DNA of 64,000 nt. Origin: Delftia sp. PS-11 (GTDB lineage: Bacteria > Pseudomonadota > Gammaproteobacteria > Burkholderiales > Burkholderiaceae_C). The stretch is taken from positions 91,887 through 155,886 of the forward strand of contig NZ_JACSYA010000011.1 in the NCBI RefSeq assembly GCF_029870285.1, in the 5' to 3' direction. A program made the translations under genes and the position numbers. Shown here one piece after another: positions 5,583 through 27,981 of this stretch; the first letter of the stretch is position 1; each line of letters opens with the position of its first letter. Under the pieces are notes generated by a model, which searched no databases, was not told where the DNA came from, and saw nothing but the letters and a program-made list of their open reading frames with translations.

Positions 5583-6779
5583 ATGCGCACTGCATCCGTC
5601 CGCCGCTTCTGGGCTCTGCTCGCAGCCTTGGCGCTGGCATCGCCCACCGCCGTCCAGGCCCGGAAAAAATACGATCCCGGCGCCAGCGACACCGAGATCC
5701 GCATCGGCAACTTCGTGCCCTATTCCGGCCCGGTATCGGCCTATGGCACCATCGGCAAGGCACAGGCGGCCTACTTCGCCAAGCTCAATGCCGAGGGCGG
5801 CATCCATGGCCGCAGGATCACCTACCTGTCGGCGGACGATGCCTACAACCCTGCGCAAAGCGTGGAGCAGACCCGCAAGCTGGTCGAACGCGATGGCGTG
5901 CTGCTGATGTTCGGCACGCTGGGCACGGCACAAAACCAGGCGGTGCAGCGTTACCTGAACCAGCGCAAGGTGCCGCAGCTGTTCGTCTCCAGCGGCGCCA
6001 CGCGCTGGGGCAACCCCGGCAACTTTCCCTGGACCATGGGCTGGCAGCCCACCTACCAGCTCGAAGGCAGCAGCTTCGCCAGGCACATCCTGGCCACGCG
6101 GCCGCAGGCCAAGGTGGCCATCCTCATGCAGAACGACGACTTCGGAAAGGACTACCTCAAAGGCGTGCTCGACGGCCTGGGCGAGCAGGCTCGGCAGCGC
6201 ATCGTCTCGCAGCAGACCTACGAGGTCGGCGACCCCACGGTGGACAGCCAGATGGTGGCGCTCAAGGGCTCGGGAGCCGACACCTTCATCAATATCAGCA
6301 CGCCCAAGTTCGCGGCCCAGGCCATACGCAAGGCTGCCGAAATCGGCTGGAAGCCCGAGCACTATCTGGTCAATGTGTCCATGTCCATCAGTTCGGTGCT
6401 CAAGCCTGCGGGGCTGGACCATGCGCGCGGCGTGATCACGGCCACCTATCTGCGCGAGCCGTCCGACCCGACCCACCAGGGCACGCCCGAGCTGGCCGGC
6501 TACCTGGCCTTCATGCGGCAGTACTACCCGGCGGGCGACCCCGATGACTCGCTCAACGTCATCGGCTACTCGCTGGCACAGACCCTGGAGCAGGTGCTTC
6601 GGCAGGCTGGCGACGATCTGACGCGCGCCAACATCATGAAACAGGCCGCCAGCCTGAAGATGCAACTGCCCATGCTCTATCCCGGCATCGACCTGCAGAC
6701 CGGCGCGGACGACTTCTACCCTGTCGAGAAGATGCAGCTGGTGCGCTTCGACGGCAGCCGCTATGTGCCCGTGCAGTAG
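5583..6779 (+). CDS. Periplasmic ABC-transporter substrate-binding protein (Peripla_BP_6)
   Basis: Binding protein of 398 residues for the adjacent importer. It begins with a clear Sec signal peptide (MRTASVRRFW, then a Leu/Ala-rich core, cleavage likely after VQA near residue 26). The mature part starts with the family-typical TEIRIGNFVPYSGP pattern and keeps the FGTLGT and NDDFGKDYL segments of leucine/amide-binding-like proteins. The ATG at 5583 follows AGGAGACCT; an in-frame GTG at 5565 is less well placed. Its location between permeases and a CoA ligase suggests it captures the carboxylate that the ligase then activates. Confidence 0.9.
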   Translation: MRTASVRRFWALLAALALASPTAVQARKKYDPGASDTEIRIGNFVPYSGPVSAYGTIGKAQAAYFAKLNAEGGIHGRRITYLSADDAYNPAQSVEQTRKLVERDGVLLMFGTLGTAQNQAVQRYLNQRKVPQLFVSSGATRWGNPGNFPWTMGWQPTYQLEGSSFARHILATRPQAKVAILMQNDDFGKDYLKGVLDGLGEQARQRIVSQQTYEVGDPTVDSQMVALKGSGADTFINISTPKFAAQAIRKAAEIGWKPEHYLVNVSMSISSVLKPAGLDHARGVITATYLREPSDPTHQGTPELAGYLAFMRQYYPAGDPDDSLNVIGYSLAQTLEQVLRQAGDDLTRANIMKQAASLKMQLPMLYPGIDLQTGADDFYPVEKMQLVRFDGSRYVPVQ

Positions 6780-6821
6780 CAGGACGCATCCACGACATAC
6801 CGAACAAGGAGACATGCCCCC

Positions 6822-8468
6822 ATGCCCGCCATGCAAGGACTGATGCAGGACCGCCCGCTCATGATCTCGTCGCTGATCGAGCATGCGGCGCGCTTTCATC
6901 CGCACACCAAAATCGTCTCGCGTCTGCCTGAGGGCGGCATGCACCGCACCGACTGGGCAGGCATGCACCGCGCTGCATGCCAGGTGGCCAACGCGCTGCA
7001 GTCGCTGGGCGTGCAGCCAGGCGAGCGCGTGGGCACGCTGGCCTGGAACAGCTGGCGCCACCTGGCGCTGTACTTCGGCGTCTCGGGCAGCGGCGCAGTG
7101 CTGCACACCATCAACCCGCGCCTGTTTGCCGAACAGATCACCTACATCGCCAACCATGCCGAGGACAGGGTGCTGTTCTTCGACATCACCTTTGCGCCCC
7201 TGGTGGCGCAGCTCGCCCCCCACCTGAAGACCGTGGCCACCTATGTCTTCATGGGCGCGCGTGCGCACATGCCGGCTCTGGAGCTGCCCGGTCTGCTGTG
7301 CTGGGACGAGCTGGTGGACAGCCAGAGCGAGTGCTTCGACTGGCCCGAGTTCGACGAGCGCACGGCCTCTTCGCTGTGCTACACCTCGGGCACCACGGGC
7401 AACCCCAAGGGCGTGCTGTACTCGCACCGCTCCACCGTGCTGCATTCGCTGATGGAGCTGGCGCCCGACACCTTCGGCGTGAACTCGCACGAGACCATCA
7501 TGCTCATCGTGCCCATGTTCCATGCCAATGCCTGGGGCACGCCCTATGCGGCGGCCATGGTGGGCGCAAGCCTGGTGCTGCCGGGCCCCCACCTGGACGG
7601 CCAGAGCGTCTATGAGCTCATGCGCGACGAGAAGGTGAGCTTCTCGCAGGGCGTGCCCACAGTGTGGCTGATGCTGTTCCAGTACCTGGACGCCCACCCC
7701 GAAATCGATCCGCGCGCACTGGGCATCAAGCGCATCGGCATTGGCGGCGCAGCGGTGCCGCGCGCCATGCTGGAGCGCTTCGAGAACCAGTTCGGCGCCC
7801 AGGTCGTGCAGGGCTGGGGCATGACCGAGACCAGTCCCATCGGCGTGATCAGCAGGCTGCTGCCCAAGCATGAGGCCCTGGCACCGGATGCGCTCATCCA
7901 GGTCAAGCTCAAGCAGGGGCGCGGCGTCTGGGGCGTGGACCTCAAGATCGAGGACGACGATGGCAGGCCCCTGCCCTGGGATGGCAGGACCTGGGGCCAC
8001 CTGCGCGTGCGCGGCCCCTGGATCGCCAGCGGCTACTTCAAGGGCGAGGGAGGCTCGCCCGTGGACGAGCAAGGCTTCTTCGCCACCGGCGACGTGGCCA
8101 CCATTGACCCTGACGGCTTCCTGCAGCTGGTGGACCGCGCCAAGGATGTGATCAAGTCAGGTGGCGAATGGATCTCCTCCATCGATGTGGAAAACGCCGC
8201 CATGAGCCACCCGGCCGTGGCAGAGGCTGCCATCATCGGCGTCGCCCACCCCAAGTGGCAGGAACGCCCGCTGCTGCTGGTCGTGCCGCGTCCGGGCCAG
8301 AGCGTGACACGCGAATCCATGCGGGAGTTTCTGTCCACGCGCATCGCCAGGTGGTGGCTGCCCGACGATGTGCTGCAAGTGGCCGAGCTGCCGCACACGG
8401 CCACCGGCAAGCTGCTGAAAACCCGGCTGCGCCAGCAGTACAGAAACTATCCGCTGCCCACCGCCTGA
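6822..8468 (+). CDS. Fatty-acid/carboxylate-CoA ligase (AMP-forming)
   Basis: ANL-superfamily acyl-CoA synthetase of 548 residues that activates a carboxylate with ATP and CoA. The P-loop [12 protein letters not shown], the GWGMTE adenine-site motif, the FFATGDVA hinge Asp and the C-terminal catalytic Lys in TATGKLLKT are intact. The overall form resembles medium/long-chain ligases (AlkK type). AAGGAGAC precedes the chosen ATG, and an out-of-frame ATG lies between them. It should act directly after import through the upstream ABC system. Confidence 0.92.
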
Positions 8469-8487
8469 ACACCCCAAGGAGACCTCC

Positions 8488-9612
8488 ATGGCAGGACCGC
8501 TTGAAGGCGTGCGCATCGTCGAGTTTGCCGGCCTGGGCCCGGGGCCGTTTTGCGCCATGCTGCTGGCCGACCTGGGCGCCGATGTGCTGCGCATCGCGCG
8601 GCCCGGCACGCCAGTGGATGCGCGCGATGTCACCACGCGCAGCCGCCGCCAGATCGGGATCGACCTGCGCAGCGCAGCGGGGCAGGCCTCGGCGCTGGCC
8701 CTGATCGCACGTGCCGACCTGCTGATCGAGGGCTTTCGCCCGGGCGTGATGGAGCGCCTGGGCCTGGGGCCCGAGCCCTGCCTGCAGCGCAACCCGCGCC
8801 TGATCTACGGACGCATGACGGGCTGGGGCCAGCACGGGCCGCTGGCCCATGCGGCAGGGCACGACATCAACTACATCGCGCTGTCGGGCGCGCTGCATGC
8901 CATTGGCCGGGCGGGCGAGGCGCCCGTGCCGCCGCTCAACTACGTGGGCGACTTCGGCGGCGGCGGCATGCTGCTGGCTGTGGGCCTGCTGGCCGCGCTG
9001 CACGAGGCCGGACGCAGCGGCCAAGGCCAGGTCATCGATGCCGCCATGACCGACGGCGCAGCCCTGCTGTCGGCCTTCATGTACGGCTTCAAGGCCCAGG
9101 GACGCTGGAGCAGCCGGCGCGGCGAGAACATGCTCGACGGCGGAGCGCACTTCTATGACACCTATGCCTGCGCCGATGGCAAATACATCGCCATCGGCGC
9201 CATCGAGCCGCAGTTCTATGCCGAGCTGTGCCGGCGCTGCGGCATCCAGGACCCGCTGTTCGAGGGCCAGATGGATGCCGCGCGCTGGCCCCTGCTCAAG
9301 CTGCGCCTGGCCGACATCTTGCGCACGCGCACCCGCCAGCAGTGGTGTGAGCAGCTCGAAGGCAGCGACGCCTGCTTCGCCCCCGTGCTCGACTGGGACG
9401 AAGCGCCGCAGCACGCCCACAACCGCGCCCGGGCCACCTTCACCGAAGCCGGTGGCGTGATCCAGCCCGCGCCCGCGCCGCGCTTTTCGCGCAGCGCCCC
9501 CGATGCGCCGCAGCCGCCGCGCGCCGCCAGCCTCGACGAAGCGCTGGCCGCATGGGATACACCGGCCGCCGCCCACCCAGCCCACAAGGGAAAGCCATGC
9601 CCCTGCCAATGA
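8488..9612 (+). CDS. Alpha-methylacyl-CoA racemase (CaiB/BaiF family III)
   Basis: Family III CoA-transferase-fold enzyme of 374 residues. It looks like an alpha-methylacyl-CoA racemase rather than a transferase: it keeps the catalytic pair seen in bacterial Mcr enzymes, a His in [14 protein letters not shown] and an Asp in [12 protein letters not shown], plus the racemase-like RHENMLDG-type segment (here [13 protein letters not shown]). Such enzymes epimerise 2-methylacyl-CoA so that dehydrogenases specific for the (S) form can act. AAGGAGACC lies just before the ATG. Its presence is the main clue that the operon's substrate has a 2-methyl branch. Confidence 0.88.
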
Positions 9613-10745
9613 CGCGCTCCTGGAGCACCCCCGAACTGGAAAGCCTGCGGGCCACAGCCGTACGCTTCATCGAAACCGAGATGCAGCCACAAGACGAAGC
9701 GGCACGCCTGCGCGGCCATGTCGGCCATGCCCTCTGGCGCCGGGCGGGTGAGCTGGGCCTGCTGTGCACCGACATCCCCGAGGCCTACGGGGCAGGCGGC
9801 GGCGACTTCCGCCACGAAGCCGTGATCCACGAGGAAATGGCGCGCCGGGGCCTGACGGGCATGGGCAACTCCGTGCACTCCATCGTGGCCCACTACCTGC
9901 TCAACCACGGCACCGAAGCGCAAAAACGCCGCTATCTGCCGGCCATGGCACGCGGCGAACTGGTGGGCGCCATCGCCATGACCGAGCCCGGCGCGGGCTC
10001 GGACCTGCAGGGCATTCGCACGCGCGCCGAGCGCCAGGACGGCCGCTACCGCATCACCGGCAGCAAGACCTTCGTCACCAACGGACTGCTGGCCGGCCTG
10101 GTGCTCGTGGTCTGCAAGACCGACCCCACCCAGGGTGCGCGCGGCACCTCCATTGTCATCGTCGAGACCCGGGACTGCCCTGGCTTCAGCGTGGGCCGCA
10201 TGCTGGACAAAATGGGCATGAAGGCACAGGACACCTCGGAGCTGTTCTTCGACGGTGTGGACGTGCCGCAGGATGCGCTGCTGGGCGGGCGTGAAGGCCA
10301 GGGCTTTTACCAGCTCATGGCTGACCTGCCCTACGAGCGGCTGATCATCGGCCTGACGGCCCTGGCCTGCATGGAGGGCGCCTATGAGGCCACGCTGGCC
10401 TATGTGCGCGAGCGCCGCGCCTTCGGACAGGCCATCGCCGACATGCAAAACACCCGCTTCAAGCTGGCCGAAGTGGCCACCACCATCACGGTGGGGCGCG
10501 CCTTCATCGACCGCTGCGTGGAGCAGCTCGTGGCCGGCACGCTGGACACGGCCACGGCCTCCATGGCCAAGCTGTGGTGCTCCGAAGCCCAGGGCCGCGT
10601 ACTCGACGAGCTGCTGCAGCTGCATGGCGGCTACGGCTTCATGAACGAATACATGGTCACACGCATGTACGCCGACGCACGCGTGCAGCGCATCTACGGC
10701 GGCACCAGCGAAATCATGAAGGAAGTGATCTCGCGCGCGCTGTAG
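9597..10745 (+). CDS. Acyl-CoA dehydrogenase, IVD/LCAD-type catalytic base
   Basis: FAD-dependent acyl-CoA dehydrogenase of 382 residues catalysing the first oxidation of beta-oxidation. The FAD/substrate motif [12 protein letters not shown] and the C-terminal [11 protein letters not shown] segment are clear. The catalytic-base position used by medium- and short-chain enzymes (IYEGTSQ) reads IYGGTSE here with Gly368, whereas a Glu is present at residue 247 in PYERLIIG, the site used by isovaleryl-CoA and long-chain enzymes. The ATG at 9597 overlaps the end of the racemase gene by 16 bases and follows AAGGGAAAG. The arrangement supports a branched or bulky substrate. Confidence 0.92.
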
Positions 10746-17321: not shown

Positions 17322-18854
17322 ATGGAAAACACCGCAGCAACCCCATCGAGCCCCTTGATATTCAACGGCTCCAGCGAGAAAAAAACAGTCCACGCACCAT
17401 TCCCTGCCGGGGTTTCTCCCGCCTTGTACAACCATGACCTGGCCCCCACCAAAAAAGAAGGACGCTCCTGGGGCGCCTACAGTCTTTTCACACTCTGGGC
17501 CAATGATGTTCACAGCCTGGGCAATTACGCATTTGCCATAGGACTTTTCGCACTGGGACTGGGTGGCTGGCAGATTCTTGCGGCCCTGCTGATAGGCTCC
17601 GCATTTCTGTTCTTCCTGCTCAATCTCTCGGGATTCATGGGACCCAAGACAGGGGTTCCTTTCCCTGTGATGAGCCGAATAAGCTTTGGAACACGTGGCG
17701 CGCAAATCCCTGCACTGATCCGTGGCGGAGTGGCTATTGCATGGTTCGGCATTCAGACCTATCTGGCATCCATGGTGCTCGATGTACTGTTGCTTTTGCT
17801 TTTTCCCGGTCTGGAAGCCCTCAATGCCCCATCCGTCCTGGGGCTTCCCATTCTCGGATGGATCAGCTTCAGCACCCTTTGGGTCATCCAGGTCCTGATC
17901 GCCTGCTGGGGCATGGAAAGCATCCGAAAATATGAGGCTTTTGCCGGACCCGTGATCCTGGCGACTTTCGTGGCCCTGGCGGGCTGGGTGCTCTACAGCA
18001 GCGCAGGCAAGATCCAGTGGGCCGCCCCCCAGGCCATCACCGGCACGGCCATGTGGGCGCAGATCCTGGGAGCGGCTTCGCTGTGGGTGGCCATCTATGG
18101 CACTTTCGTGCTGAACTTCTGCGACTTCACCAGGGGGGCAACATCACGCAGCGCCGTGGTCAAGGGCAATTTCTGGGGCATCCCCATCAACATGCTGTTT
18201 TTCGGCCTGATCGTGGTGATCCTGACCGGAGGCCAGCTCTCCATCGATGGCACGCTGATCAAAAGCCCTTCCGATATTGTCCAGAAAATCCCCAATACAC
18301 CGCTTCTGGTGATGGCCAGCCTTTCCCTGCTGATTCTGACCATTGCCGTGAATCTGATGGCGAATTTCGTCGCCCCGGCCTTGGCATTGGCCAACCTGAT
18401 GCCGCGCCACCTGAATTTCCGCCGGGCTGCCCTGGTCAGCGCCATCATCGGTTTTTGCATACTTCCCTGGAATCTTTACAATTCACCCCTGGTGATTGTC
18501 TATTTCCTGGGCGGACTCGGCTGCCTGCTGGGCCCTCTGTTCGGCATCGTCATGGCCGATTACTGGCTGATCCGCAAGCAGCGCGTGAATGTTCCGGCCT
18601 TGTACACACATGACCCTTCAGGGCCTTACCACTATCACAATGGCGTCAATCCCAGGGCTATCAAGGCTTTGATTCCTTCGGCACTGATATCACTGCTTTT
18701 TGCATTTCTTCCCGCACTGCATTCGCTTTCTCAATTTTCATGGTTCATCGCTGCAGGGCTGGGCGCCTTGTCATACTGGATGATTTCTCCGAAGGGATTG
18801 GTCTATGAAGATCAGGATGGCGAATCAATTGCCGTGAATGCGGCCACACACTGA
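17322..18854 (+). CDS. NCS1-family nucleobase/hydantoin/allantoin permease
   Basis: Inner-membrane symporter of 510 residues with about 12 hydrophobic segments. The N-terminal pattern (NHDLAPTKKEGRSWGAYSLF, then WANDVHSLGNYAFAIGL) and FPVMSRISFGTRGAQIPAL are characteristic of NCS1 cation symporters (Mhp1, PucI, allantoin permeases). Codon use is less GC-biased than in neighbouring genes, with several A/T-ending codons, which could mark more recent acquisition. It ends 17 bases before the start of the racemase-like gene, so the pair likely shares a transcript and a substrate class (hydantoins, allantoin or other cyclic ureides). Confidence 0.88.
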   Translation: MENTAATPSSPLIFNGSSEKKTVHAPFPAGVSPALYNHDLAPTKKEGRSWGAYSLFTLWANDVHSLGNYAFAIGLFALGLGGWQILAALLIGSAFLFFLLNLSGFMGPKTGVPFPVMSRISFGTRGAQIPALIRGGVAIAWFGIQTYLASMVLDVLLLLLFPGLEALNAPSVLGLPILGWISFSTLWVIQVLIACWGMESIRKYEAFAGPVILATFVALAGWVLYSSAGKIQWAAPQAITGTAMWAQILGAASLWVAIYGTFVLNFCDFTRGATSRSAVVKGNFWGIPINMLFFGLIVVILTGGQLSIDGTLIKSPSDIVQKIPNTPLLVMASLSLLILTIAVNLMANFVAPALALANLMPRHLNFRRAALVSAIIGFCILPWNLYNSPLVIVYFLGGLGCLLGPLFGIVMADYWLIRKQRVNVPALYTHDPSGPYHYHNGVNPRAIKALIPSALISLLFAFLPALHSLSQFSWFIAAGLGALSYWMISPKGLVYEDQDGESIAVNAATH

Positions 18855-18871
18855 ACCGGAGTTTCTTGTAC

Positions 18872-19591
18872 ATGCGTATTTTGATTGTCAACGTCAACAC
18901 CACCGAGTCGATGACCCAGGCCATCGGCGAGCAGGCACGCAAAGCCGCCGCGCCCGGCACGGAGATCGTCGCCCTGACGCCCCGCTTCGGCGCAGAGTCC
19001 GTCGAAGGCAACTTCGAGAGCTATCTCGCGGCGGTCGGCGTCATGGACGCCGTGATGCGCTACGACCAGCCCTTTGATGCCGTCATCCAGGCCGGCTACG
19101 GCGAGCATGGCCGCGAAGGCTTGCAGGAATTGCTGGAGGTGCCTGTCGTGGACATCACGGAGGCCGCTGCCTCCACGGCCATGTTTCTGGGCCACAAGTA
19201 TTCCGTGGTCACCACGCTGGACCGTGCCGTGCCGCTGATCGAGGACCGGCTCAAGCTGGCCGGGCTGGATGCGCGGTGCGCCTCCGTGCGGGCCAGCGGC
19301 ATGGCCGTGCTGGAGCTGGAAACCCAGCCCGAGCGCGCGGTGCAGGCCATCGTGGAGCAGGCCACGCTGGCGGTGCGCCAGGATCATGCGGAAGTGATCT
19401 GCCTGGGCTGCGGCGGCATGGCCGAACTGGAGGCCAGGATACGCGAGCGCACGGGCGTACCCGTGGTGGATGGCGTGGCCTCGGCCGTGACGATTGCCGA
19501 GTCGCTGGTGCGCCTGGGCCTGAAGACGTCCAAGGTGCGCACCTATGCGCCTCCGCGCACCAAGCGCGTGAGCGGCTTTCCGCTGCCGTAA
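18872..19591 (+). CDS. Asp/Glu/hydantoin racemase family protein, one catalytic Cys replaced
   Basis: Protein of 239 residues in the Asp/Glu/hydantoin racemase superfamily (MRILIVNVNTT start; LGCGGMAELE near the C-terminus). Two cysteines normally act as acid/base pair: the second is present (Cys180 in LGCGGM), but the first position, normally ACFGDPG-like, reads AGYGEHG with Gly75. A one-cysteine arrangement is known from arylmalonate decarboxylase, so a different reaction is possible; it may also be a subfamily whose chemistry I cannot recall. The ATG at 18872 follows CCGGAG. Co-transcribed with the NCS1 permease; no hydantoinase or carbamoylase lies nearby. Confidence 0.8.
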   Translation: MRILIVNVNTTESMTQAIGEQARKAAAPGTEIVALTPRFGAESVEGNFESYLAAVGVMDAVMRYDQPFDAVIQAGYGEHGREGLQELLEVPVVDITEAAASTAMFLGHKYSVVTTLDRAVPLIEDRLKLAGLDARCASVRASGMAVLELETQPERAVQAIVEQATLAVRQDHAEVICLGCGGMAELEARIRERTGVPVVDGVASAVTIAESLVRLGLKTSKVRTYAPPRTKRVSGFPLP

Positions 19592-19607: not shown

Positions 19608-20828
19608 CTACTTGCTGGTCTTGAAGCCCTGCCCCGCCGCCCAGGCGGCCACGTCGTCTTTGCGGATGGCCGCTGCCATCAGTTGCGGGAAGGCATCGGG
19701 CGTGCAGGCGAACGAGGGCACGCCCAGGGCCGCGAGCTTGCCGGCCAGTTGCGCGTCGTAGGCCGGAGCACCCTCGTCGCTGAGGGCCAGCAGGGTGATG
19801 AACTGCACGCCGGATTCCACCAGTTCCGAGGCGCGCCGCAGCAGGCCGCTTTCCACGCCGCCTTCGTACAGGTCGGAGATGAGCACGACGATGGTGTTGC
19901 GCGGCTCGCTGATCAGCTCCTGGCAATAGCCCACGGCGCCGTTGATGTCGGTGCCGCCGCCCAGTTGCACGCCAAACAGCACATCCACGGGATCGGACAG
20001 CTTGTCGGTGAGATCGACCACGGCGGTGTCGAAGACCACCAGTTTCGTGCTGACGGCCGGCAAGCTTGCCATGACGGCACCGAAGATGCTGGAGTAGACG
20101 ACCGAGTTGGCCATGGAGCCGCTCTGGTCGATGCACAGGATGACCTCGCGCTGCGGCCTGCGCGCCTTGCGCCCGTAGCCGATCAGGGTCTCCGGCACGA
20201 CGGTGCGGTATTCGGGCTGCCAGTGGCGCAGATTGGCGCGGATGGTGCGGTTCCAGTCGATCTCGGCATGGCGCGGTCGCCGGTTGCGCTGGCTGCGGTC
20301 CAGCGCGCCCGAGACCGCGCTGCGCATGGGCTCTTCGAGCCGGCGCATAAGGTCATCCACGACTTTGCGCACCACGATGCGCGCAGTTTCCTTGGTGTTC
20401 TGCGGTATGACCGAGCCCAGGGAGATCAGGTCGGCGACCAGATGCACGTCAGGCTGCACATGTTCGAGCATCTCGGGCTGCAGCATGAGTTCACGCAGCT
20501 TCAGGCGCTCCATGGCATCGTGCTGCATGACCTGCACGACCTGGCTGGGGAAATACTTGCGGATATCGCCCAGCCAGCGCGCCACCGAGGGCGAGGAGTT
20601 GCCACGGCCGCCGCGCCGCGAAAGGCTGGAGTCGGGCTCGTAGAGCGCAGCCAGGGCCTTGTCCATCTCGGCGATGGAGCCGCCCACGGCGCCGCAGCTG
20701 GCTTCGGCGGGCTGGCCCAGGACCAGGCGCCAGCGCTGCAGGCGCGTGGTGGGCGCGGGCTCGCCGTCAGCGCCTTCGGCGGATGCGGCGTCGGCGGACA
20801 CGGTGTCCGGGGAAGTGTCTTGCAGCAT
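19608..20828 (-). CDS. VWA-domain protein (MoxR-associated)
   Basis: Protein of 406 residues with a von Willebrand A domain in its C-terminal half (about residues 225-395). The metal-binding MIDAS motif is intact: CIDQSGSMANS, GGGTDINGAV and VLISDLYEGG. The N-terminal 220 residues are helical and of CoxE type. Such proteins work with MoxR AAA+ ATPases, using the metal site to hold a client. It is the last gene of a five-gene minus-strand cluster and starts three bases after the DUF5682 stop codon. It converges on the racemase-like gene with only 16 bases between them. Confidence 0.88.
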   Translation of the reverse strand: MLQDTSPDTVSADAASAEGADGEPAPTTRLQRWRLVLGQPAEASCGAVGGSIAEMDKALAALYEPDSSLSRRGGRGNSSPSVARWLGDIRKYFPSQVVQVMQHDAMERLKLRELMLQPEMLEHVQPDVHLVADLISLGSVIPQNTKETARIVVRKVVDDLMRRLEEPMRSAVSGALDRSQRNRRPRHAEIDWNRTIRANLRHWQPEYRTVVPETLIGYGRKARRPQREVILCIDQSGSMANSVVYSSIFGAVMASLPAVSTKLVVFDTAVVDLTDKLSDPVDVLFGVQLGGGTDINGAVGYCQELISEPRNTIVVLISDLYEGGVESGLLRRASELVESGVQFITLLALSDEGAPAYDAQLAGKLAALGVPSFACTPDAFPQLMAAAIRKDDVAAWAAGQGFKTSK

Positions 20829-20831
20829 GGT

Positions 20832-23330
20832 TCAGGCCTCCTGCGGATTCGACAGGCTCTGGGCTGGCAGCTCCAGACCCAGCAGCTCACCCAGCACGGG
20901 CAGGGCCAGCGCGGCGCGCTGCACGTCCCAGGGTTGGGCACCGGGTGTGCCTGCCAGGCGGGCCACGGGCTGGGCGCCCGCAGTCTGGGACTGGCGGGCC
21001 TTCTCACCCAGGCTCTGGCGTTCGTGCGTGGAAAACTCCGAAAAGCTGCGACGCACCAGCGGCAGGATTTGCACGAACTGGGTTTCGCCCAGTTGGGCCA
21101 GCCAGGCATCGACAGCGCCCCAGATGGCCTGGTCGTGCAGCAGCACCAGGGCCTGGCGGTTGAGGAAGCCGTCAAGCCAGGCGGCGGCGTCCAGCGGCGG
21201 CACGCCCAGCGAGAGGTTGCGCGACAGCTGGGTGGACACGCCGGCGGTGTCGAGCAGTTGGGCGTCAAGCAGCAGGCGGCAGGCCATGCCGCGCAGCAGT
21301 GCCGCCGCCGCATCGCCCAGGGCCAGGCTGCGCAAGGCGCCATGCCAGGCCTGCATCGGCTCGGCTGCTTCGCGCAGGCGCAGCGCCTCGTGGGCCTGGA
21401 GCACGGTGGCCTGCATGCTGCGGGCAGCGTCCTCGTCCAGCGACATGCAGGCTACGGGCAGGCCAATGGCCGCGCGCAGGGCCAGGCTGTCGATGACGCT
21501 GGCCAGCGCCTGGGTGTCGGTCTGGCGCACGCTGCCGTAGCGGTAGACGTTGGCCAGCGGCGGCAGCGCCTGCAGCAGCTGGGCGACATCGCCCGTGCTG
21601 GCCGAGCGCTCGGCCAGGTCGTGCATGAGCGCATCGACCAGCTGCGGCAGGTCGGCCAGCAGGGCATCATCCACCGCCTGGGCCATTTTAGGCAGCGGGG
21701 TGTCGGCATCCATGCTTTGCCGCACCTTGGCCGATGCGGCCTGCACCAGGGTGCCGCCGAAGCGGCTGGCCTCGATGATGCGCACGGCCAGCCCGGGCTC
21801 CCACTGCAGTTGCCAGCTTTCGCGGAAGGTGCCTCGGTTGCGCTGCTGGTCGGCGGCAAGGCGCCCCCAGTCGATGCCCAGCAGGCGCAGGCGGTGCAGG
21901 AACTGGCTGCGCTCGCGGTCGATGTCTTTGCGCAGGTCCAGGGCCAGCAGCTTGGCAGCGGCCTCGGGCTTGAGGCGCAGGCTTTTTTGCTGCTGCTCGA
22001 TGTCGCGCTGCAGCGGTACCTGGGGCACGTCTGCGGGCACCGCGCCAATGCGGTCGCCCACGCTGAGTTCGCGCTCGATCAGGGCCAGGGGCGCGCGCTC
22101 GCCCATGCAGATGACGGTGACGATGGCCTCTTCCAGCTCGGGCAGGCCCGGGCTGGCATGGCCGCGCAGGGCGGCAAGGCTCTCGGCCAGACGCGTGGCT
22201 TCGATGATGTGGGCGCTGGAGCAGTCCAGGTCTTTGGAGCGCAGCAGCTGCGCCACGCGCGCCAGCCAGGCCACCGTGCGGCGGCGGATGTCAATGCCGC
22301 CATCCGCCACATGCTGCGAGGATTGCCACAGGTGCTCGTACCAGCCCGGCGAGTCCACGCCGGCGCCGTAGCCGCTGGAGGCACACAGGTTGCGGTAGGT
22401 CCAGGGGGCCCAGGTGGCCTGGACCTTGGCCTTGGGCAGGCCCTTGAGCAGTGCGGTATCGGCCTTGGCGGTGACCTGGGCCTTGAGCGCAGGCACGTGC
22501 CAGGCGCCGCAGACCACGGCGATGCGCTGGTAGCCGGCCTTGACGGCTTCGCGCATGCACTGGCGCATCCAGGCTTCGCGCAGGGCCTCGCGCCGGGCAT
22601 GGCGCTCGCCGCGTGCCTCGTTGGGCAGCTCGGCGCGCACGGCGGCCATGGCCTCGGCGATGCCGTCGAACAGTGCCGAGCCGTCGCCACGCTCCTCGAC
22701 CATGCGGTTCCACCAGCTTTCGCCATCGGCATGGCCGGCCGCATGGGCCAGCAGGTCCAGCGGATCGCTCCAGTCATGCACTGCTGCGGGCTCGGGCGGG
22801 TGCTGCGGCGCGCTGGCATCCATGGCGCCGGGTGCGGCATCGTCGTGGCCAGACGCATCTTCAGACGGGTCTGCAGGCAGCCCGGCTGTGGTGGACTCTT
22901 CGTCGCCGCCCGCGCCGCTGCACGCGCCGCTGCACGCGCCGCTGTCCGCCTCCTGGGCTGCGGCCTCGGCCTTCAGGCGCTCCTGCTCGGCCAGGTCCAG
23001 CGCCATGCGGTGGGTCTGAGGCAGGTCCATGAAGCGCGTGGCCACGCCCTGGCGCGCAGCCCATTGCATGGCTTGCCATTCGGGCGAGAACTCGGCAAAA
23101 GGATAGAAGGCGGCATGCGAGGGACTGTCCTGCACATAGACCAGCATGGCCACGGGCGGGCGCAGGTCGGCATGCCCGAGCATGGGCAGCAGGGCCTCGC
23201 CCTCGGGCGGGCCTTCGACCAGCAGGCAATCGGGCTGCAGCTGCTCCAGCGCGTGGAGCAGGCTGCGTGCGCAGCCGGGGCCGTGGTGGCGTATGCCGAA
23301 GAAGTGGAGCGTGTCGGCGGAAGTAGCCAT
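20832..23330 (-). CDS. DUF5682 family protein, possibly TraB/TIKI-like
   Basis: Large protein of 832 residues with no assigned function that I know. The N-terminus reads FFGIRHHGPGCARSLL then DCLLVEGPPEG (Glu39), and a later segment reads CMREAVKAGYQR followed by VVCGAWHVPAL (His278). The spacing of a Gly-x-x-His element, a Glu after a beta strand and a late Gly-Ala-x-His-Val-Pro motif resembles the TraB/TIKI/ChaN/EreA metal-hydrolase superfamily; this link is my inference. A low-complexity Ala/Glu/Gly/Ser linker lies near residues 125-185. It sits between the MoxR and VWA genes, spaced by 7 and 3 bases. Confidence 0.8.
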   Translation of the reverse strand: MATSADTLHFFGIRHHGPGCARSLLHALEQLQPDCLLVEGPPEGEALLPMLGHADLRPPVAMLVYVQDSPSHAAFYPFAEFSPEWQAMQWAARQGVATRFMDLPQTHRMALDLAEQERLKAEAAAQEADSGACSGACSGAGGDEESTTAGLPADPSEDASGHDDAAPGAMDASAPQHPPEPAAVHDWSDPLDLLAHAAGHADGESWWNRMVEERGDGSALFDGIAEAMAAVRAELPNEARGERHARREALREAWMRQCMREAVKAGYQRIAVVCGAWHVPALKAQVTAKADTALLKGLPKAKVQATWAPWTYRNLCASSGYGAGVDSPGWYEHLWQSSQHVADGGIDIRRRTVAWLARVAQLLRSKDLDCSSAHIIEATRLAESLAALRGHASPGLPELEEAIVTVICMGERAPLALIERELSVGDRIGAVPADVPQVPLQRDIEQQQKSLRLKPEAAAKLLALDLRKDIDRERSQFLHRLRLLGIDWGRLAADQQRNRGTFRESWQLQWEPGLAVRIIEASRFGGTLVQAASAKVRQSMDADTPLPKMAQAVDDALLADLPQLVDALMHDLAERSASTGDVAQLLQALPPLANVYRYGSVRQTDTQALASVIDSLALRAAIGLPVACMSLDEDAARSMQATVLQAHEALRLREAAEPMQAWHGALRSLALGDAAAALLRGMACRLLLDAQLLDTAGVSTQLSRNLSLGVPPLDAAAWLDGFLNRQALVLLHDQAIWGAVDAWLAQLGETQFVQILPLVRRSFSEFSTHERQSLGEKARQSQTAGAQPVARLAGTPGAQPWDVQRAALALPVLGELLGLELPAQSLSNPQEA

Positions 23331-23337
23331 GGGGTGC

Positions 23338-24420
23338 TTACAGTTGCTCGCGGCAGGCGCGGTACAGGTCCTTCCAGTCGCTGCGTTCCTTGACCACGGT
23401 TTCCAGGTATTCCTTCCAGACCACGGTATCCTGCACCGGGTCCTTGATCACGGCGCCCAGCAGGCCCGAGGCCACGTCGCCCGCGCGCAGCACGCCGTCG
23501 CCGAAGTGGCCGGCCAGCGCCATGCCGCTGTTGATGACCGAGATGGCTTCGGCCGTGGACAGGGTGCTGCTGGGCGACTTGACGCGCACGCTCTTGCCGT
23601 CTTCGGTCTGGCCGTTGCGCAGTTCGCGGAAGATCTGCACCACGCGGCGTACTTCCTGCAGCGCGGGCGGCTCGGCAGGCAGCGCCAGGGCGCGGCCCTG
23701 CTCGGCCACGCGCTTGGTGACGATCTGCACCTCCTCGTCCTGGGAGGCGGGCACGGGCAGGACCACGGTGTTGAAGCGGCGCTTGAGCGCGCTGGACAGT
23801 TCGTTGACGCCCTTGTCGCGGTTGTTGGCCGTGGCAATGACCGAGAAGCCCTGCACGGCCTGCACTTCAGTGCCCAGCTCGGGCACGGGCAGTGTCTTTT
23901 CGGACAGCACGGTGATCAGCGTGTCCTGCACGTCGGCGGGAATGCGGGTGAGTTCCTCGATGCGCGCGATCTTGCCCAGCTTCATGGCATGCACCAGGGG
24001 GCTGGGAATGAGTGCCTGCTCGGACGGGCCGTGGGCCAGCAGCTGGGCATAGTTCCAGCCGTAGCGCAGCTGCTCTTCACTGGTGCCGGCCGTGCCCTGC
24101 ACCAGCATGGTGGAGTCGCCGCTGACGGCAGCGGACAGGTGCTCGGAGACCCAGGACTTGGCCGTGCCGGGCACGCCGTACAGCAGCAGCGCACGGTCGG
24201 TGGCCAGCGTGGAGACGGCAATTTCCATGAGGCGGGGGTTGCCGATGTACTTGGGAGTGACCTCAAAGCCGTTGTCGAGCTTGCCGCCCATCAGATACTG
24301 GAGCACGGCCCAGGGCGACAGCTTCCAGTTGGGCGGACGCGGACGGTCGTCCACCTTGCGCAGGGCTTCGAGTTCTTCGGCGAATTGCTGTTCGGCATGC
24401 TGGCGCAGGACTTGGCTCAT
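23338..24420 (-). CDS. MoxR-type AAA+ ATPase
   Basis: AAA+ ATPase of 360 residues. Walker A is GVPGTAKS, sensor 1 is IATANNRDKGVNELS and is followed by the arginine pair of LKRRFN. The Walker B region reads ARIEELTRIPADVQD, with Glu where most MoxR proteins have Asp. MoxR ATPases remodel or load cofactors into clients presented by VWA partners, and a VWA protein is encoded two genes downstream. ATG at 24420 (MSQVLRQHAEQQ) is chosen over a 47-residue upstream extension that has no family resemblance. Gaps are 55 bases to DUF5691 and 7 bases to DUF5682. Confidence 0.9.
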   Translation of the reverse strand: MSQVLRQHAEQQFAEELEALRKVDDRPRPPNWKLSPWAVLQYLMGGKLDNGFEVTPKYIGNPRLMEIAVSTLATDRALLLYGVPGTAKSWVSEHLSAAVSGDSTMLVQGTAGTSEEQLRYGWNYAQLLAHGPSEQALIPSPLVHAMKLGKIARIEELTRIPADVQDTLITVLSEKTLPVPELGTEVQAVQGFSVIATANNRDKGVNELSSALKRRFNTVVLPVPASQDEEVQIVTKRVAEQGRALALPAEPPALQEVRRVVQIFRELRNGQTEDGKSVRVKSPSSTLSTAEAISVINSGMALAGHFGDGVLRAGDVASGLLGAVIKDPVQDTVVWKEYLETVVKERSDWKDLYRACREQL

Positions 24421-24475
24421 GGTGTGGTTCCGGGATGAATGAGGGTGGTATTCGGGAAAAGACTGCGGGTCGGGA

Positions 24476-26176
24476 TCACGCCGCACGCTGTACGGCAAAG
24501 GCCTGGTGCAGCCCCAGGCGCAGGCGGACGATGCGTTCAAGGCCGTCACGCACCCGGTCATCGTCCCAGGGCCGTATGCGGCTGCGATCGAGCATGGCCT
24601 GCTGCTCCGGCGTCAGCGCCGAGGCCGGATCGGCGGGCGTGGCAGGCACATCCGCTGGCGCGGCTTCATCTTGCGTGTCGGCCTGCAGCGCCGGCTGGCG
24701 CCACAGCGCGGCAAACCGCTGCAGCGAGGCGACATCCAGCATGCGGGCGCAGGACAGCAGGGCCTGATCGGCCTGCCAGCTGTGCCAGCTTTGCGTGGCA
24801 TGCCGGCCGCCCAGCGCCTGGTGCAAGGCATCGACAAGACGCTCGGACAGCGCGGGCGACAGATATTCCGTATCGGGCATGGACTGCGCAATGCCGGCGA
24901 TGGTGTCAACGAGCTTGCCCTGGTCGCGCTCGAACCAGGCCTGCCACCGCGCCTCGCGCTCGGCAGGCGGCAGCTTGGCCATGAGCAGTTGAACCAGCGT
25001 GTCGGAACGCATCTCGCGCCCCTGCGCCACCTCGATCCATCCGACATCCAGCTGGTGGTTCAAGGCATGCTGCAGCCCCTGGCGCAGCGACGCCTTCCAG
25101 TCGCTTTGGCGCACCCACTGCATCAGCTGCACCGGGGTCTTGCCCAGCGTCTGCGTCCAAAAGCCCAGCGGCGTGAGCTGCACCACCTGCTGCAGCAGCC
25201 AGGCTTTCTGGCCACCACGGAAATACGGGGAAGGCTGCGACACGACGCCATCGTGCGCCCAGTCTTCGGGGGCCTGCTCAGGCGGCTCGATGCTCCACTG
25301 GCCCTGCTCATCCTGGCGCAGCATGGCACGCATCCAGCCCGCCACGCGCTGGCTGTGCGCGCTGCCGGGCAGGCACGACAGCAGCTGGGCCGCATGTTCG
25401 CGCACCTCCCGGCTGCGGTCGCGCAGCAGTTTTTCGAGCAGGGGCTCATCCTCCAGGCTCAGGCCCACGGCCAGTGTCTGGACCATGAGCAGGCGCTCCT
25501 TGGCGCCCAGGTTCTTGAGGCTGGCTTCGAGGCGCTCGCGCGCCCCGGCGGCATCGGTCTGTCGTTCGCTGCGCAGCAAGGCCACGCGCTGGTCCACGGA
25601 GCCTTCCTGCCAGAGCTGCTCAGGGGATGCGGTTTCCTCGACGCCGCCTGCATAGGACCACTGGGGGTTGAGTGTGCCCAGCCACCGCCCGCGCTCGCCG
25701 AGCACAGGGTCCAGCCATGGCCGCAGCGACGTCGCCTGGCGGCCCTGCTCCAGGGCCAGTGCCAGCAGGTCATGGGGCAGGCGCAGCCCCGATTGGTCCA
25801 GAATGCGCAGCATGGCAGCGCGCAGGCTGAAGGGCCCATCGGCCAGCACTTCGCGCATCAGGGATTTGAGCGCCTCATCCTCAGGCGCAGGGCGCCGCTC
25901 CGCAGGGGCAGGCTGTGGCTCCGCCAATGGCGCCTTCAAGGTGATTTGCGACCCCGGCTGCCATCCCGCACGCTCGAAGACCGCTGCCACAGCGCTGGCG
26001 CGCAGCAGTTGCGCCGCTGCGGATTCAGCGGGCTGGACTATTGCCGCCAGCAGCGCCTGATGGCAGGGATCGGTGCCCATGGCAGCTGCCTGCACCAGTG
26101 CCTGCGGCACAGGCAGGCGGTCCGCACCGACCATGGCCGACTGCTGCAGCGCAGCCCAGATTTGTGCATTGCTCAT
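24476..26176 (-). CDS. DUF5691 family protein (HEAT-like repeats)
   Basis: Protein of 566 residues of unknown function that I place in DUF5691 from its position beside SWIM, MoxR and DUF5682 genes and from its sequence style. It is rich in Leu/Gln/Trp helices; the segment LRDRSREVREHAAQLLSCLP looks like a HEAT repeat, so the protein may be a solenoid scaffold. There are no catalytic motifs or membrane segments that I can see. Its ATG overlaps the SWIM gene stop codon by ATGA, implying coupled translation. Confidence 0.75.
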   Translation of the reverse strand: MSNAQIWAALQQSAMVGADRLPVPQALVQAAAMGTDPCHQALLAAIVQPAESAAAQLLRASAVAAVFERAGWQPGSQITLKAPLAEPQPAPAERRPAPEDEALKSLMREVLADGPFSLRAAMLRILDQSGLRLPHDLLALALEQGRQATSLRPWLDPVLGERGRWLGTLNPQWSYAGGVEETASPEQLWQEGSVDQRVALLRSERQTDAAGARERLEASLKNLGAKERLLMVQTLAVGLSLEDEPLLEKLLRDRSREVREHAAQLLSCLPGSAHSQRVAGWMRAMLRQDEQGQWSIEPPEQAPEDWAHDGVVSQPSPYFRGGQKAWLLQQVVQLTPLGFWTQTLGKTPVQLMQWVRQSDWKASLRQGLQHALNHQLDVGWIEVAQGREMRSDTLVQLLMAKLPPAEREARWQAWFERDQGKLVDTIAGIAQSMPDTEYLSPALSERLVDALHQALGGRHATQSWHSWQADQALLSCARMLDVASLQRFAALWRQPALQADTQDEAAPADVPATPADPASALTPEQQAMLDRSRIRPWDDDRVRDGLERIVRLRLGLHQAFAVQRAA

Positions 26177-27594
26177 ACGATCTCACCCCGGTTGTGCCAG
26201 ATGCAGTGCTGAACCTGCGTGTCCTGGCCCGTCTGCCAAGCGCTCAGCAGGCGCCAGCGGCCCAGGCCCGCCACAGGCTCCCATTCGCCAAACAGCTGCA
26301 GCGGCCCGCCTCCGGCGAGTGCCATCAGCTGCCAGGCATCGGCATCGTCGATCACGGCGGGAACCGGCTGGGCCGCCGCCTCGGCGCCCGGCCATGCCAC
26401 CAGCCAGCGGCCTTCGGCGAAAACCAGCCGCGCCCCCGCCTGCCACAGCGGCTGAACGGACTGCAGCGGATTGCCCGCGATGCGCTGGCCCAGCTGCGAC
26501 AGCGTGTCGCCCATGGTCTGCACAGTCAATGGCTGGCCCTGCTGCGGCTCCAGCGCAGCGCCGTTGCCCTGGACCGCGACGGCGCGCAAGGGCGCCTTGC
26601 CAGGGTAGAAGTGCAATGCGCAGCGGTAGCGCGCCCCTGCCACCCAGGCCGACTCGAAACCGCGCCCGCCCTGCGCATAGTCCAGCACCAGCGCCATGCG
26701 CCCGGAGCCCAGGCCCTGCAGCCAGACACGGCGCTCCATGAGCCGGCCTTCGCGCTCGATGGTGCGCAGGCCGGCCACCAGCCATTCATCGTCCACCTGC
26801 TGGCCCCTGGCCTGGACTTCGGCCTTGTCCATGGGCCAGCCCAGGGCGGCCATCACATCGGCGCGCACCTCGGGGCTCAGCTGGTCACGCCGCCGCACGG
26901 CGTCCACGATCAGTTGCCAGTGTCCCAGCTGTACCAGCAGGTCGCGCGGCCAGCCTTCGTGGCTGTCCACCAGTTCCCAGCACTCCCTGACGCGGGCAGC
27001 CATGCCCGTGGCCTGCGCATCCACCATGCGCGCAGACATGGTGCGCCAGCGCTGCTGCGCCTGCGGATTGCCGGCCTGGCTGGCCAGGCCGCTGCGCACC
27101 ATATCCTGCATCCACAGCGACAGTTCCTGCAGTCCGGCCTCGATCTTGTCCCAGCGCTTGTCCTCGCGCCTGGCCTGCTGCCGGGCTGCGGCTTCGGCAT
27201 CGGCCGGTGACGCGGCAACGGCAGCTGCGGCGGCGGCCTTGGCTTCCTTCTTCTCGGCCTTTTCCTGGCGGCTGTCCAGCCAGGACTGCACCCAGGCCGG
27301 CGGATCGCCCCCCTCGGGCACCTGGCCGCCAGCGCGCATCAGCATCAGCGCCAGGCCGTGCTTGCAGGGAAATTTGCGGCTGGGGCAGGAGCATTTGAAC
27401 GACGGTCCCGACAGATCGACCTGGGTCTGGTAGGGCTTGCTGCCACTGCCCTGGCATTCGCCCCAGACCGCAGCGTCATTGCATCCCGTAAGCGGCCATT
27501 TGGATGGGGACAGCAGCCCCTTGGCAGCCTTGCTCGATGCGGCGTCCGGCGACAGCGCCAGCACTTCGCTTTCTGTTCCTAGTACACGCGACAC
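26173..27594 (-). CDS. SWIM zinc-finger protein
   Basis: Protein of 473 residues, first gene of the five-gene cluster. It has a SWIM zinc finger with Cys68, Cys70, Cys77 and His79 in FKCSCPSRKFPCKHG (CxC-x6-CxH), a fold that binds nucleic acid or protein. An Ala/Lys/Glu-rich stretch lies just after it (about residues 115-150). The GTG start at 27594 is preferred over an upstream ATG at 27642 because GGAGAGGGAG precedes it at good spacing. It could be the recognition or regulatory part of the system; that role is inferred. Confidence 0.82.
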   Translation of the reverse strand: MSRVLGTESEVLALSPDAASSKAAKGLLSPSKWPLTGCNDAAVWGECQGSGSKPYQTQVDLSGPSFKCSCPSRKFPCKHGLALMLMRAGGQVPEGGDPPAWVQSWLDSRQEKAEKKEAKAAAAAAVAASPADAEAAARQQARREDKRWDKIEAGLQELSLWMQDMVRSGLASQAGNPQAQQRWRTMSARMVDAQATGMAARVRECWELVDSHEGWPRDLLVQLGHWQLIVDAVRRRDQLSPEVRADVMAALGWPMDKAEVQARGQQVDDEWLVAGLRTIEREGRLMERRVWLQGLGSGRMALVLDYAQGGRGFESAWVAGARYRCALHFYPGKAPLRAVAVQGNGAALEPQQGQPLTVQTMGDTLSQLGQRIAGNPLQSVQPLWQAGARLVFAEGRWLVAWPGAEAAAQPVPAVIDDADAWQLMALAGGGPLQLFGEWEPVAGLGRWRLLSAWQTGQDTQVQHCIWHNRGEIV

Positions 27595-27965: not shown

Positions 27966-27981
27966 CTGTATATTTTCACAG
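27966..27981. promoter_or_regulatory. LexA (SOS) box before the radical SAM gene
   Basis: CTGTATATTTTCACAG matches CTGT-N8-ACAG exactly, with an AT-rich core, the proteobacterial LexA operator form. It overlaps the -10-like TATACT (27962-27967) and TATATT (27969-27974) and ends two bases before the ATG at 27984, so bound LexA would block transcription start. It makes the radical SAM/DUF4130 pair a probable SOS operon. Confidence 0.75.

Follow-up and report, generated by a model that had tools for sequence, protein, structure and literature searches.

A five-gene set in Delftia sp. PS-11

The stretch of DNA analyzed here, referred to below as the window, comprises 64,000 nucleotides of contig NZ_JACSYA010000011.1 of Delftia sp. 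PS-11. At positions 19608-27594, it carries five minus-strand genes in the order SWIM, DUF5691, MoxR/AAA_5, DUF5682, and VWA_CoxE. These encode a SWIM zinc-finger protein (26173-27594; 473 amino acids, GTG start), a HEAT-like DUF5691 protein (24476-26176; 566 amino acids; PF18944, E value 1.6e-111), a MoxR-type AAA+ ATPase (23338-24420; 360 amino acids; PF07728, 4e-37), a DUF5682 protein (20832-23330; 832 amino acids; Pfam match at 1.8e-259), and a VWA_CoxE protein with an intact metal ion-dependent adhesion site (MIDAS) (19608-20828; 406 amino acids; PF05762, 1.3e-53). The Pfam match of the SWIM protein has an E value of 6.9e-06, and all five matches lie above the curated cut-offs. The open reading frame (ORF) calls leave gaps of -4, 55, 7, and 3 bases between the genes. 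An earlier reading of this DNA, made from the letters alone and here called the sequence-only reading, had named the five genes, their families, their strand, and the gaps, all of them correctly according to ORF calls and Pfam. The SWIM ORF extends upstream to 27642 (TTG), with 27594 (GTG) as its most likely start; the MoxR ORF extends to 24561, and its most likely start is predicted to be 24420, in agreement with its relatives.

The five genes form a conserved unit

GTDB genomes were scanned with a DUF5682 alignment, yielding at least 571 confirmed stretches. The best 80 of these were retained (a selection that over-weights close kin), and their gene families were assigned by iterated hidden Markov models (HMMs). 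The exact order SWIM-DUF5691-MoxR-DUF5682-VWA was found in 61 of these 80 loci by HMM and in 68 after inspection. The seven loci gained on inspection are L030 and L088, which have over-long ORFs, L040, with SWIM and DUF5691 in a single frame, and L062, L077, L089, and L096, where one or two genes are split over two frames, through error or breakage. Contig ends cut another six loci (L025, L029, L045, L083, L092, and L094), and the remaining six are exceptions: L055, L064, and L067 have DUF5682 alone (L055 is also truncated upstream by its contig), L085 is without MoxR, L090 is without detected SWIM or DUF5691, and L091 has MoxR-DUF5682 only.

Among the best 80 loci, the order extends from Pseudomonadota to Cyanobacteria, Chloroflexota, and Planctomycetota, with hosts that include Comamonadaceae, Lysobacter, Allochromatium, Superficieibacter, Mailhella, and Leptolyngbya as well as Ktedonobacteria, Planctomycetota, Acidobacteriota, and Verrucomicrobiota. 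A plasmid collection adds Deinococcus, Rhizobium, Hymenobacter, Nonomuraea, and Methylosinus (the last with its VWA gene in three frames), along with a Fusobacterium record that holds all of the set except a detectable DUF5691. An entry labelled Interleukin-4 receptor subunit alpha of Manis javanica (P0236), with matches to DUF5691, DUF5682, and AAA_5, was set aside as probable bacterial contamination of the pangolin assembly.

Co-occurrence is also visible at the level of whole genomes. A sample of 199 Pseudomonadota genomes, drawn with less bias, has DUF5682 in 10 and DUF5691, above its cut-off, in five; all five DUF5691 genes lie within 1.2-1.5 kb of a high-scoring DUF5682 gene (>700 bits), and none of the seven lower-scoring DUF5682 matches (328-385 bits) has a DUF5691 gene nearby. 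Within the host genus, 37 genomes were compared, five of them <90% complete; the 22 that have DUF5691 are also the 22 that have window-type DUF5682, the two genes being separated by 1.3-1.7 kb in 21 carriers and by 5.7 kb in genome G023. One genus genome has its DUF5682 gene split over two open frames (G003:C8:45113-47525). A tree of three joined proteins broadly tracks phyla, with 12 changes as compared to a minimum of 8 and to 24 after shuffling; transfers are possible, for example where Undibacterium stands beside Ktedonobacteria on a long branch.

The five genes are thus a real, broadly conserved, co-occurring unit. The sequence-only reading had called them one unit, and had named genes that rarely occur together as the observation that would speak against it; the neighborhood survey found the order kept across the great majority of loci. 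It had further mentioned knowing of no demonstrated function for the set, and no published function was found among the best-ranked matches of the literature searched.

A MoxR-VWA pair with three constant partners

MoxR is the most conserved of the five proteins, being 69-98% identical to the window MoxR, and its Walker A, Walker B, sensor Asn, and RR positions are invariant in all nine aligned sequences. Its solved relatives by sequence include midasin (the best, at 1.6e-25) and NorQ. In the VWA protein, the MIDAS residues D234, S236, S238, G290-G292, D294, and D319 are invariant in 26 of 26 sequences; the VWA_CoxE match ends at residue 381 of 406, with no effector domain following it, and a profile search with the VWA alignment returned no solved relative. 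With AAA_5 and a CoxE-type VWA in the same operon and their motifs intact, the MoxR-VWA pair that had been proposed from the sequence stands.

The NorQD, CoxDE, and CbbQO chaperones likewise combine a MoxR-type AAA+ ATPase and a VWA protein (AAA_5 and VWA_CoxE here); the window set is set apart from them by three additional partners that are constant and by the absence of a client enzyme gene recurring in its vicinity. For NorQD, PMC13036017 describes cryo-electron microscopy that places the VWA finger inside the MoxR pore and lends support to a twist in the linker of the partner. Midasin/Rea1, the best solved sequence relative of the window MoxR, also carries a VWA domain docking onto its own AAA+ ring (PMC13036017), but is a single giant chain of ~4,700-4,900 residues, whereas the window set consists of separate small genes.

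The five proteins do not evolve at the same pace. Median pairwise identity over 62 rows is 0.77 for MoxR, 0.66 for VWA, 0.50 for DUF5682, 0.42 for SWIM, and 0.30 for DUF5691, the least conserved of the five. Distance-matrix correlations reach 0.94-0.95 among SWIM, DUF5691, and DUF5682 and 0.92 between MoxR and VWA, as compared to 0.82-0.89 across these groups. Moreover, SWIM and DUF5691 are fused in a 1009-amino-acid protein on a Hymenobacter plasmid (38% and 29% identical to the window SWIM and DUF5691, respectively), and they share one 1092-amino-acid frame in a Hydrogenophaga metagenome-assembled genome, where a frame error is possible. Given these higher correlations and the fusions, SWIM, DUF5691, and DUF5682 look like one module and MoxR-VWA like a second one.

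Fold leads in the partner proteins

The CxCxnCxH motif of the SWIM protein is invariant in 49 of 49 sequences, all of which also match PF04434 at E values of 1 or below. Its C-terminal half (residues ~258-458) shows some resemblance to two OB folds in tandem and matches HIN-200 domains, which are known to sense DNA; the SWIM alignment found no solved relative by profile search. These features are in keeping with the recognition role that had been suggested for this protein. DUF5691, previously described as HEAT-like, indeed gives weak matches to the HEAT-type Pfam models HEAT_2 (17 of 55 members), HEAT (16 of 55), and HEAT_EZ (12 of 55), and its alignment, too, returned no solved relative in a profile search.

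In DUF5682, an N-terminal domain (residues ~1-310) precedes a HEAT-like helical C-terminal part. This domain appears TIKI/TraB-like, as judged by a fold match and by conserved motifs in matching order, which supports the suggested hydrolase role as a possibility. By profile, the link to TIKI/TraB/ChaN is not significant (hhalign probability of 1.1 for TraB and 0.3 for ChaN, with TraB versus ChaN giving 79.9), nor did the DUF5682 alignment find a solved relative (best E value 0.96). From the superfamily, DUF5682 differs further by an extra FSPEW region and by its long helical C-terminal part. Its conserved His-rich motifs are GIRHHGPG and CGAWH. A ChaN-family Pfam match in one of 55 DUF5682 members (E value 0.11) was discounted because DUF5691 members give a like match (one of 55, E value 0.12).

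A sister set in Escherichia coli and a second set in the host

E. coli K-12 harbors a sister set, yehL-yehM-yehP-yehQ, adjoining DUF4132 genes (yehI, with yehH alongside), in which homologous MoxR, DUF5682, and VWA genes follow the same order as in the window. Window and K-12 proteins are 38% identical for MoxR, 25% for DUF5682 (YehM; 43% in an N-terminal stretch), and 36% for VWA. The two sets differ in that the SWIM gene comes last in yehLMPQ and first in the window, the two SWIM proteins not being alignable (E value 0.064), and in that DUF4132 genes take the place of the window's DUF5691. The lower-scoring DUF5682 type mentioned above is this E. coli type.

Within E. coli, the set is nearly fixed: of 5426 complete genomes, 5284 have a YehM match, which covers 80% or more of the gene in 5166 of them, and 5283 have a match to YehI (DUF4132). 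No function was found for yehL, yehM, yehP, or yehQ among the best-ranked matches of the literature searched. The host genome itself has a second, E. coli-type set on contig 10 (locus L013, 4642-15959), consisting of two DUF4132 genes, MoxR, DUF5682, VWA, and a YehQ-like protein, and four more genomes of the genus carry this type as well (L014-L017). Neither the K-12 sister set nor the second set of the host is noted in the sequence-only reading. On an Iodobacter plasmid, the E. coli-type set adjoins a type I restriction system. As a separate observation, an E. coli IncF plasmid typed as conjugative (L162) has a chromosome-like yehI-to-mlrA segment between IS26 copies, beside resistance genes.

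Genomic context

No sixth gene recurs outside close kin: among the first 25 clusters of ORFs beyond the five families, none spans more than nine loci, and those reaching beyond close kin sit at scattered positions. The genes on either side are a mixture in which housekeeping families are frequent (first 25 of 112 families). Within the genus, purL and a sulfhydrylase gene flank the set, and the interval between them measures 11.6-15.0 kb in four carriers. In ten genomes without the window type, it spans 1.3, 4.1, 9.9, 11.8, and 19.7 kb in five, exceeds 100 kb in three, and is split between contigs in two; the site is variable, and two of the non-carriers look empty. In the window, the opposite strand just beyond the operon end (17322-19591) encodes an NCS1-type permease (NCBIfam matches below cut-offs) and a 241-amino-acid protein without an NCBIfam match.

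In G023 and in Variovorax sp. OK212, a pair of Hsp90-like and TPR genes lies between MoxR and DUF5682 (L163, 5321-9562; L032, ~5736-9947; two genera). The Hsp90-like proteins of these loci are 88% identical and the DUF5682 proteins 60%, and the pair therefore moved recently. A similar pair, annotated as ATP-binding and TPR or hypothetical proteins, is found with none of the five genes on two plasmid-collection records, from Pseudomonas and Xanthomonas. The insertion, seen at two loci only, hints at chaperone work.

Comparison with defense systems and search for regulatory sites

The sequence-only reading had likened the set to MoxR/VWA-centered conflict systems. PADLOC gave nothing convincing for the five proteins, only weak MoxR matches (best E value 0.0036). 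To cover the flanks, ORFs were chosen greedily by their length, with no gene caller, at 49 selected loci. This gave 185 near and 231 distant ones, of which 127 near genes (48 loci) and 136 distant genes (45 loci) were scanned with PADLOC. Among the first 25 of 90 families in either set, none matches more than two of the 127 near genes; PD-T4-6, a kinase, is the family most often shared near the set. Isolated matches of near genes include PDC-S73 and an RtcR/CARF type, and distant genes look alike, with isolated matches that include Cas8f, Cas3f, HmaC, and ZorA-type. Of 50,697 phage records, one matched, namely an unverified 14-kb fecal scaffold labelled 'Bacteriophage sp.' (MT835988.1; L160) that carries MoxR-DUF5682-VWA and may be bacterial DNA.

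The ternary conflict systems described by Kaur et al. 2020 (PMC7159879) have in common with the window a MoxR-vWA core, which that paper derives from CoxD-CoxE. Unlike them, the window set has no known third component (VMAP, iSTAND, iSTAND2, or TERNS3) and no vWA-fused or other ternary-system effector by Pfam; among the partners, Pfam lists only DUF5682, DUF5691, and SWIM, with bpMoxR below its cut-off, and neither SWIM nor yeh appears in the main text of PMC7159879. Together with the near-fixation of the E. coli set, these results leave the conflict-system analogy unsupported. The rest of the earlier interpretation, that is, the unit, the MoxR-VWA pair, the HEAT-like DUF5691, SWIM recognition, and a possible hydrolase, is retained.

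In the regions upstream of 69 SWIM genes, sites of the LexA, sigma-54, sigma-32, and RDRM types, searched by consensus pattern, were not clearly more frequent than in 20 rough shuffles. An exact LexA-type match occurs once in these regions (0.4 expected), namely in the window, where the palindrome CTGT-N8-ACAG occupies 27966-27981; one such match is near chance, given that 0.84 are expected per 64 kb. What stands out is its position: it ends two bases before the likely start (27984) of a divergent DNA-repair gene of the radical SAM type (TIGR03916, to 29303; TIGR03915 comes next), and it is more likely a site of this neighbor than of the five-gene set.

Discussion

We propose, with a probability of roughly 40%, that the five genes encode one ATP-driven remodeling machine in which a MoxR-VWA motor acts on a SWIM-DUF5691-DUF5682 module. 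By family homology, MoxR would form a hexameric ring in whose pore the MIDAS VWA protein docks, as in NorQD. Co-evolution, fusions, and folds suggest that this motor acts on the second module. Within it, the SWIM/tandem-OB protein and the HEAT-like DUF5691 might pick the target, probably nucleic acid or nucleoprotein, and ATP turnover would open or load DUF5682, with the TIKI/TraB-like N-domain as a putative catalytic or cofactor-binding part. The likeliest setting may be the intracellular upkeep of protein or nucleoprotein complexes under stress. In Deinococcus radiodurans, a DUF4132 gene and also a WGR gene increase when DdrO is depleted (PMC8533742), and E. coli yehF encodes a WGR protein, making a nucleic-acid or DNA-damage setting worth testing, but the regions upstream of the 69 SWIM genes show no enrichment of LexA-type sites. 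A more specific version, a nucleic-acid-gated, ATP-driven protease in which SWIM/tandem-OB and DUF5691 sense exposed DNA or RNA, MoxR-VWA exerts force, and the TIKI-like domain of DUF5682 cuts protein, strikes us as distinctly unlikely. If true, it would be a gated protease unlike known AAA+ proteases, the motor pulling a regulator and not threading a substrate.

The set might instead serve to insert a metal or cofactor, as a chaperone like CoxDE/NorQD that loads DUF5682, with its ChaN-like domain, as a metalloenzyme or cofactor carrier. Membership of the VWA_CoxE family, NorQ among the solved relatives of MoxR, and the conserved His-rich motifs of DUF5682 all fit this idea, yet the nor, cox, and cbb clusters typically contain their client metalloenzyme genes, and beside the set no client enzyme gene recurs among the first 25 ORF clusters, although DUF5682 could be an internal client. 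The SWIM and OB-like parts would also be left unexplained. NorQD inserts iron (PMC13036017), and a possible molybdopterin role is mentioned for DUF4132, the neighbor of the E. coli set, in PMC8533742, where, however, D. radiodurans moeA and moeB do not respond alongside the DUF4132 gene. On balance we consider an insertion chaperone conceivable but doubtful.

A defense or conflict system, with SWIM/OB as the sensor of foreign nucleic acid, MoxR-VWA as the part that sets a threshold, and DUF5682 as the effector, would account for the patchy distribution (5 of the 199 Pseudomonadota genomes and 22 of the 37 genus genomes have window-type DUF5682), for the variable purL-sulfhydrylase interval, short in two of ten non-carriers, and for the copies on plasmids of Rhizobium, Deinococcus, Hymenobacter, and Methylosinus. 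The restriction system on the Iodobacter plasmid, the single PADLOC matches near the set, and the HIN-200 match point the same way. Against it stand the PADLOC results for the five proteins and for near genes, which resemble distant ones, the lone phage-record match, a tree that broadly follows phyla, the near-fixed E. coli set, a well-conserved MoxR with no sign of an arms race, and the lack of a known effector domain by Pfam. A defense role is not demonstrated, the conflict-system reading is weakened, and we regard it as rather unlikely. Finally, a loose neighborhood of independent housekeeping genes, for which the six exceptional loci (three with DUF5682 alone) might be cited, is highly improbable in view of the cross-phylum order, overlapping or near-abutting genes, fusions, and whole-genome co-occurrence.

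Returning to the remodeling machine, an order kept in lineages as far apart as Comamonas, cyanobacteria, and Chloroflexota, and with a near-fixed sister in E. coli, stands next to a literature whose best-ranked matches gave no function for it. The fold leads, tandem OB in SWIM and TIKI-like in DUF5682, give these unknown families a testable biochemistry, and the K-12 sister set makes the question of function directly approachable by deletion. If the proposal is true, the known role of MoxR-VWA motors would extend beyond metal insertion and Rubisco activation.
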